Assembly: GCA_035573435.1 (NCBI GenBank)
Contig: DATMZR010000012.1
Location: 186,001-250,000, forward strand
Source of the DNA: Solirubrobacterales bacterium
GTDB lineage: Bacteria; Actinomycetota; Thermoleophilia; Solirubrobacterales; 70-9
DNA length: 64,000 bases
Reading direction: 5' to 3'
The translations under genes were made by a program, and so were the position numbers. Shown here piece by piece: positions 19,781-20,829 of the stretch (its first letter is position 1; the number at the start of each line of letters is the position of its first letter). The notes under the pieces are model-generated. The model worked only from the letters and a program-made list of their open reading frames with translations. It made no database searches and had not been told where the DNA came from.

Positions 19781-19808
19781 CTGGACGCCCCGAGCAGGAT
19801 TCGAACCT
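19781..19808 (-). repeat. tRNA-Arg 3'-end fragment, outer copy
   Basis: Twenty-eight bases identical to 19857-19884, of which the last 25 equal the 3' end (acceptor strand and T arm) of the tRNA-Arg(CCT) gene at 20756-20829. It begins 11 bases after the P450 stop. It cannot form a tRNA by itself. It looks like an attachment-site scar left by an element that used the tRNA gene. Confidence 0.75.
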
Positions 19809-19859
19809 CAGCGAGCCCGGAGGGCGAGCGGTGTCGCATGTTCGCTCCTGCGAGGGCTG

Positions 19860-19903
19860 GACGCCCCGAGCAGGATTCGAACCTGCGACCTACTCCTTAG
19901 GAG
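19860..19903 (-). repeat. tRNA-Arg 3'-half fragment, probable att site
   Basis: Forty-four bases matching 20754-20797 with one mismatch (position 19888). The match runs from just past the 3' end of the tRNA through the T arm and variable loop and stops exactly at the edge of the anticodon loop. This is the usual extent of a tyrosine-integrase attachment core. With the intact tRNA at the other end, it delimits a roughly 850-base segment (19904-20753) as an integrated or once-integrated piece. Confidence 0.75.
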
Positions 19904-20020
19904 AGCGTGCCGGCGAAAACGACGCTTGACGACGGAGGACGACGAATCCCACTTGTAGACACGGTTTGCGGGCCTTCTAGATCCGATCCTCGGAAGGTCC
20001 CCGCAGACCCGCCCCGCCAA

Positions 20021-20044
20021 CGTTTGGGCCACTATCGGGCCACG
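20021..20044. repeat. 24-base direct repeat, left copy
   Basis: Identical to 20690-20713 at 23 of 24 positions (C instead of T at 20036). Each copy contains two similar blocks, TTGGGCCACTA followed by T(C/T)GGGCCACG. The two copies bracket the GFA-family gene, 669 bases apart. Confidence 0.7.
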
Positions 20045-20242
20045 CCGAGGGCGGTGAGGTCTACGACTCCTCCCGCAGCCCGGCGGCTTCGAGGGGCCCT
20101 CGTATTGGCGAAGCGATGGTGCACAGCCCGGGTGGCTTGGCGCATCTTGTGGATGCGTACATGCGCCGAGGTGCCCACCTCAGCGCCCGCCGGTGGTAGC
20201 GTGGCGGGGATCGTTCAACGCGCAACTTGAAAAGGGGTCGTG

Positions 20243-20632
20243 ATGGCTGAAACGCTTGAGGGAACTTGCTTGTGCGGCGCGGTGGAGTACGAGGTTCAAG
20301 ATCCCCAAGCACTGGGTTACTGTCACTGCACTCGCTGCCAGCGGTGGACCGGCTCGAGCCTCGCGGGCGTGGTCGTTGCCAAGGAGAACTTCGGGTTCAC
20401 CAAGGGCGAGGACCTGGTCACGACGTATAGGAGCGAGTTGGCACCGCGCAACTTTTGCAGCAACTGCGGGTCCAGCCTGTACGACGACCTCGGCGAGGTG
20501 TACTTCGTGGCCGCCGGGCTGATGGGCGACCTGGACCTCGAGCCGAGCTTCCACCAGCAGGTGGCATACAAGGCCCGGTGGCACCAGATCGGGGACGACG
20601 CGCCTCAGTTCGACGAGATGCCGCCGGACTGA
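20243..20632 (+). CDS. GFA-family (glutathione-dependent formaldehyde-activating-like) zinc protein
   Basis: A 129-residue member of the GFA/CENP-V fold. Zinc-binding cysteines are visible in the order CLCGAV (about 8-13), CHCTRCQR (about 27-34) and CSNCGS (about 71-76), the full pattern for the two-zinc core. The family is named for an enzyme that adds formaldehyde to glutathione, but most members have unknown substrates and that activity has been questioned. ATG 20243 is preferred to the GTG at 20240 because of the AAAAGGGG ribosome-binding site. It is the only complete gene between the two tRNA-Arg 3'-end copies, so it may be cargo of a decayed mobile segment. Confidence 0.88.
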   Translation: MAETLEGTCLCGAVEYEVQDPQALGYCHCTRCQRWTGSSLAGVVVAKENFGFTKGEDLVTTYRSELAPRNFCSNCGSSLYDDLGEVYFVAAGLMGDLDLEPSFHQQVAYKARWHQIGDDAPQFDEMPPD

Positions 20633-20689
20633 CCCCTACTCGCCGAGCACCTCCGACCCCCGAGGACGCCCACGAGCCCGTGACCGAGT

Positions 20690-20713
20690 CGTTTGGGCCA
20701 CTATTGGGCCACG
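20690..20713. repeat. 24-base direct repeat, right copy
   Basis: Partner of 20021-20044, with one mismatch. It lies 43 bases from the 3' end of the tRNA-Arg gene. With its partner it could mark duplication borders or binding sites of the element that once occupied this locus. Confidence 0.7.
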
Positions 20714-20755
20714 GCGGCTGATGCGGGAAGGGCCTTAAACGGCTGGGCTATGCGA

Positions 20756-20829
20756 CGCCCCGAGCAGGATTCGAACCTGCGGCCTACTCCTTAGGAGGGA
20801 GTCGCTCTATCCAACTGAGCTATCGGGGC
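20756..20829 (-). tRNA. tRNA-Arg (anticodon CCT)
   Basis: A complete 74-base cloverleaf on the minus strand. The 7-base acceptor stem pairs GCCCCGA with TCGGGGC, the D arm is GCTC/GAGC, the anticodon stem is ACTCC/GGAGT with loop CTCCTAA giving anticodon CCT (reads AGG), the variable loop has five bases, and the T arm is GCAGG-TTCGAAT-CCTGC. CCA is not encoded. It is an intact gene that has served as an integration site: partial copies of its 3' end lie at 19781-19808 and 19860-19903. Confidence 0.96.

Follow-up and report, generated by a model that had tools for sequence, protein, structure and literature searches.

An integrase-less 894-bp islet between attachment sites at a tRNA-Arg(CCT) gene of a Solirubrobacterales bacterium

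The tRNA-Arg(CCT) locus

The window, i.e., the whole stretch of 64,000 nucleotides analysed here, carries an intact tRNA-Arg(CCT) gene and two partial copies of its 3' end, both on the tRNA strand and downstream of the tRNA 3' end (Table 1). The longer copy (19860-19903) matches 20754-20797 at 43 of 44 positions when the two flanking bases are counted, and at 41 of 42 inside the tRNA proper, where it begins with the first base of the anticodon loop. Such identity (41/42) within 1 kb is not chance. The shorter copy, 28 nt at 19781-19808, repeats 19857-19884 exactly, 76 nt apart. The segment enclosed between the tRNA and the longer copy holds a single intact gene, coding for a GFA-family protein, and gave no match to an integrase. 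A preliminary description of this DNA had listed the intact tRNA gene, a 44-base copy with one mismatch stopping at the anticodon-loop edge, a 28-base copy 76 bases away, their common strand and downstream position, and the lone GFA gene without integrase, all of which were borne out.

Overlooked at that stage were comparable 3' copies at five other tRNAs of the genome (see below) and, within the segment, two direct repeats of 27 bp each (20021-20047 and 20690-20716), which are the key feature for assigning the islet. Two 20-bp arm-type repeats, TGGCCCRATAGTGGCCCAAA, are located there, one near attL and the other with its start 139 nt before the attR core. Their position, repetition and conservation are the grounds on which we designate them putative arm-type sites.

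Table 1. Features of the tRNA-Arg(CCT) locus in window coordinates.
Feature	Position	Strand	Basis or remark
tRNA-Arg(CCT)	20756-20829	minus	ARAGORN, Rfam
attL core = tRNA 3' half	20756-20797	minus	element-supplied under the standard model
Putative arm-type site at attL: TGGCCCAATAGTGGCCCAAA, two TGGCCCAA-type repeats 11 bp apart	20692-20711	minus	20-mer also in G098
GFA-family protein, 129 aa, sole intact gene of the islet	20243-20632	plus	Pfam PF04828, E 6e-21
3'-terminal fragment of a SnoaL-like/NTF2-type gene (..LEAAGLRE)	20067-20095	minus	family name inferred from sequence
Putative arm-type site at attR: TGGCCCGATAGTGGCCCAAA	20023-20042	minus	exact in G098 and viral contig L170
P arm of 139 nt, from arm site to attR core	19904-20042	minus	homologous to P arms of integrase-bearing elements
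attR core = displaced native tRNA 3' half, anticodon loop to 3' end	19862-19903	minus	41/42
Integrated element, crossover region in tRNA to attR core, 894 bp	19904-20797	minus	flank rejoining
T-arm/hairpin unit of ~76 bp adjoining the attR copy	19786-19861	minus	inverted T arm, constant 21-mer, 23-nt T-arm/acceptor copy
Constant 21-mer CGCTCGCCCTCCGGGCTCGCT of the hairpin unit	19810-19830	minus	recurrence
23-nt copy of tRNA T-loop-to-3' end	19786-19808	minus	sequence comparison

Rejoining the outer flanks, that is the 5' part of the tRNA and the displaced copy, restores an intact tRNA-Arg(CCT) with removal of 894 bp, so that this segment behaves as an integrated element. Moreover, the hexamer GTCCAG, which forms the native downstream bases of a same-genus tRNA-Arg(CCT), is found after the displaced copy and not after the present tRNA. 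The reading of the 44-nt copy as a tyrosine-integrase scar, already proposed in the preliminary description, gains support from both observations, as well as from the arm repeats and the 139 nt on the attR side, which are common to integrase-bearing elements (see below).

Judged from its sequence, the GFA gene is intact and under constraint: the cysteine motifs CLC, CHCTRC and CSNC are all present, and its dN/dS against homologues in related genera is ~0.15. GFA as a general traveller with these elements was considered and dropped, as most relatives carry the gene elsewhere, in differing chromosomal contexts and without arms; in G004 alone is the GFA gene near a tRNA (tRNA-Gly, 1.4 kb away) that has a degenerate arm. 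A tblastn search of the islet for integrase or phage remnants yielded nothing convincing, its best matches being open reading frames read across att or arm DNA. The ~30-bp element at 20067-20095, with about 40 matches in the genome, was likewise rejected as a dispersed repeat because the genes of a multicopy family share it as their 3' end. A large, genome-wide family of tandem SnoaL/NTF2-like genes of ~130 aa (MSQENVE...LEAAGLSE) is often found near tRNAs (L041-L043, L062, L069 and others). Elsewhere in the window, Rfam recognises a c-di-AMP riboswitch at 56697-56852 (74.9 bits).

Arm sites and integrase-bearing relatives

Of the 232 genomes of the order, only 8 contain the arm 20-mer when one mismatch is tolerated, and the two versions found in the window are both exact in only one other genome of the 232, G098. 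Public genomes gave only three matches, in unrelated phyla and with no tRNA nearby, which we took as chance.

In G098, a 9.7-kb element at tRNA-Arg(ACG) is laid out in the order tRNA, arm beginning 66 nt after the 3' end, integrase, major head protein, second arm whose start is 141 nt before the core, and 3' copy (39/39). The same plan is seen in viral contig L170 at tRNA-Pro(GGG), where the first arm begins 45 nt after the tRNA, as it does in the window, the second arm 140 nt before the core, and the copy is 42/43; its genes code for an integrase, a tape measure protein, a terminase small subunit, a capsid protein and a prohead protease. G007, a genome of the same family, carries a 4.9-kb element at tRNA-Arg(TCT) with a truncated integrase, a 47/48 copy and an attL arm with three mismatches, and G129 an element of ~2.1 kb with both arms, in-frame stops in the integrase region, and a tRNA lost at the contig start. 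These elements, the two shorter of which are decayed, form a size series from 9.7 kb (G098) through 4.9 kb (G007, truncated integrase) and ~2.1 kb (G129, broken integrase) to the 0.9 kb of the window. From arm start to core, the distance is 137-141 nt in five elements (window, 139).

Aligned to the P arms of G098, L170 and G007, that of the window is more similar than every one of 500 dinucleotide-shuffled sequences. A P-arm sequence model was built on five training rows; the window is one of them, so that its own score is not independent evidence. Beyond these rows, the model found further attR sites (E-values as low as 1e-14), several of which have a tRNA 3' half directly behind them; the matches in G225, G144 and G145 are independent of training. 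A degraded attR of the same arm family was also observed within a segment at tRNA-Cys(GCA) (L236, G156:C275, 2228-4916), with a 42/42 3' copy 2.6 kb off.

The window thus has the arm 20-mer near the tRNA 3' end and again ~140 nt before the copy, as the att family does, and lacks the cognate integrase next to attL, which is absent from the islet and from the genome. The integrase family of G098 and L170 was found neither in this genome nor in its genus. Over the whole genome, the only tyrosine recombinases are one of XerD type and one of XerC type, the latter scoring under the cut-off of the XerC model itself and over that of the general Xer model. Sequence comparison thus shows that the geometry of the islet, with its regenerated tRNA, displaced 3' half, arm offsets and 139-nt P arm, is that of the ~10-kb elements bearing an integrase and phage head genes; the islet itself is devoid of integrase and phage genes, in a genome that encodes XerC/XerD-type recombinases only. 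The arm sites alone can therefore suffice to place even a very small tRNA-side segment in a specific integrase family.

Variation at this tRNA and at other tRNAs

The arrangement at tRNA-Arg(CCT) differs among related genomes. In G010, of the same family, PyrE starts 9 bp after the tRNA, which corresponds to an empty site, and in other relatives different genes fill the interval between the tRNA and PyrE. This indicates a variable arrangement rather than an old and conserved one; the same copies and intervening sequence in full synteny, which the preliminary description had named as the sign of an old, non-mobile locus, were not encountered in distant relatives. Its suggestion that a minute cargo islet, or else a deletion product, occupies an attachment site used more than once was right, and relatives hold other elements at this tRNA. 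G025 (L113, 1676-7841) harbours two tandem integrase-less cassettes there. The first encodes a ShosTA defence pair and has iterons, GGTAGGAACA, at both ends; the second gave PADLOC matches to an E1-E2-type protein and CapH/CapP-type regulators, and the same test detected no direct repeat common to its two ends. In G011 (L114), G002 (L109), G001 and G023, it is instead the 5' half of tRNA-Arg(CCT) that has been displaced, by elements using this same anticodon loop. The element of G011 carries an integrase reading into the tRNA, and that of G002, an islet of 1.3 kb, holds a cupin-like gene and is partly masked in sequence.

Elsewhere in the genome under study, which was examined as stretches around tRNAs together with matches, a scan of tRNA neighbourhoods revealed 3' copies, exact or nearly so, that begin at the anticodon loop of tRNA-Gly(GCC), Asp(GTC), Lys(CTT), Ser(CGA) and Val(CAC). 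All 3' copies are on the tRNA strand, if one sets aside paralogous tRNAs and matches that arose by chance within a repeat gene. Three exact 45-nt copies follow tRNA-Val(CAC) in tandem (L062 = G000:C41:1-16000, 2593-6847), and ~30 nt upstream of each, cccatccgtgcctgagg, are common to them. The cargo of these five islets includes ABC transporter genes and genes for secreted repeat proteins, phosphatase-like and endonuclease V-like proteins, names that, the endonuclease V-like one excepted, were read from the sequences. None of the five holds an integrase, and a search for window-type arms in them gave no convincing pair, which implies other integrases. A genome with tyrosine recombinases of XerC and XerD type alone can thus still carry att-flanked islets at several tRNAs. 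At tRNA-Lys(CTT), an open reading frame resembling the start of a glycoside hydrolase gene ends at the attR copy (L055, 11088-11648), which suggests recombination inside a gene.

The 23-nt copy beyond the attR core is of another kind. It closes a unit in which an inverted T arm of the same tRNA, a constant 21-mer, and a direct T arm with acceptor end follow one another, and units of the same form lie after tRNA-Arg(ACG) (L141), tRNA-Ile(GAT) (L144) and a tRNA-Val copy (L146) as well as after tRNA-Thr in the congener G003 (L140). Folding z-scores of the units range from -1.7 to -3.5, and in the predicted folds pairing between the two T arms is clear for Arg, Val and Thr and partial for Ile. The 21-mer is not confined to such units: in several of L126-L134, from other genomes of the order, it is flanked by unrelated inverted stems. 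The 23-nt copy belongs to this different, T-arm/hairpin type of repeat and was probably not left by a further event of the integrase that acts at the anticodon loop; the unit could be a T-loop microCIME or a fold-back repeat. The repeated integration that the preliminary description deduced from this second copy was therefore not upheld, given a start at the T arm instead of the anticodon loop and the recurrence of the ~76-bp unit after several tRNAs.

Origin of the islet and comparable systems

The islet is very probably an integrase-less, att-flanked, CIME-like member of a tyrosine-integrase family that recombines at the anticodon loops of various tRNAs. An element of this att family would have integrated into tRNA-Arg(CCT), supplying a new 3' half and moving the old one to its present place at the attR core, and an internal deletion would then have left the two ends and the GFA cargo gene. 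What integrated may instead have been a deletion derivative that already bore GFA, the integrase being supplied in trans. Since the islet has no recognisable integrase or phage remnant, it is from its ends alone that we infer an internal deletion with both ends kept, which would be the simplest account. All the evidence is comparative; neither excision, nor a circular form, nor another copy of the islet was seen. Excision would now be impossible without a helper integrase, and neither a helper element nor its integrase was found in this genome, nor the integrase in the genus; should a helper enter the cell, the islet, its ends being intact, might be excised or take part in accretion, and its mobilisation in trans is possible.

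A more dynamic reading takes the islet for an active, non-autonomous cassette, an analogue of MITEs and CALINs for tRNA integrases. One-gene elements that retain intact att ends would then form a mobile class, set in motion in trans by the integrases of passing satellites or phages, and would not be dead remnants. It would fit the exact identity of both arms with those of a distant family member (G098), the intact and constrained cargo gene, the integrase-less islets with cargo at five other tRNAs of this genome, one of them a triple tandem, and the tandem defence-type cassettes of G025 at the very same tRNA, the first of which has iterons at both ends. Nevertheless, we regard this reading as rather unlikely: an identical islet was not found at two places or in two genomes, the genus has no helper integrase, the other islets here have other or no recognisable arms, and remnants of recent insertions would look alike. 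A broader version, in which this lineage maintains a standing pool of cassettes without integrase, each of one to few genes, metabolic or defensive, that dock at tRNA anticodon loops and are moved in trans by passing phage or satellite integrases, is offered as speculation and is unlikely on present grounds. If true, it would amount to a MITE/CALIN-like cassette system on tRNA attachment sites, which any island finder relying on an integrase would miss.

The nested copies could also be thought to result from two successive events of one integrase system, as first proposed, given that both lie in the same orientation downstream of the tRNA and that serial integration does occur at this tRNA in G025 and at tRNA-Val here. 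The T-arm start of the second copy, the recurrence of its 76-bp unit after tRNA-Arg(ACG), Ile(GAT), the Val copy and the Thr of the congener, and the lack of any arm site between the two copies make this very unlikely. Still harder to credit is an old tandem duplication or an assembly artefact involving no integration at all. The genome is indeed a draft of 43 contigs, but the window comes from within a contig of 295 kb, synteny with a congener covers both flanks (PyrE/L,D-transpeptidase and the MSDH side), copies starting at the anticodon loop recur in several unrelated tRNAs, and the P arm and arm sites are common to integrase elements.

The reading as a CIME-like member of an integrase family invites comparison with known systems. 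By published definition, CIMEs keep their att sites, have lost their recombination genes, and derive from ICEs or IMEs; in streptococci, classical CIMEs span 1.2-13 kb with cargo and microCIMEs 130-220 bp without genes (PMC7563491, PMC5704250). The ssrA islands of Dehalococcoides have no integration module (PMC3146451). Like all of these, which are often found in tandem, the islet is att-flanked and without recombination genes: cores and putative arm sites are kept at both ends, and with GFA as the only intact gene there are no functional genes for recombination, mobilisation or transfer. It differs in falling between the two streptococcal size classes (894 bp, one gene) and in having no intact element in tandem. 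The relatives that share its att sites carry phage structural genes, including head genes, whereas CIMEs are ICE- or IME-derived; because these intact relatives are phage-like, the islet is CIME-like and not a CIME by descent. At ~10 kb, with an integrase by attL and head or packaging genes, these relatives recall cf-PICI-like phage satellites, which have capsid genes of their own, or small prophages, and G098 and L170 may carry satellites or decayed prophages. Capsid or packaging genes, present in both, are absent from the islet.

MITEs and CALINs keep their recombination ends, lack the enzyme, and can move in trans (PMC11389934). The islet likewise has ends without an enzyme; its ends are tRNA att sites for a tyrosine integrase. 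The tRNA islands catalogued by Islander consist of a regenerated tRNA and a displaced fragment with crossover at the anticodon loop (PMC4383910), all of which the islet shares. Since Islander rejects candidates that have no integrase or measure less than 2 kb (PMC4383910), an islet of 894 bp without integrase would be omitted. Such islets fail the filters of a main tRNA-island database, and their cargo, possibly including anti-phage systems like those of one relative here, may be undercounted.
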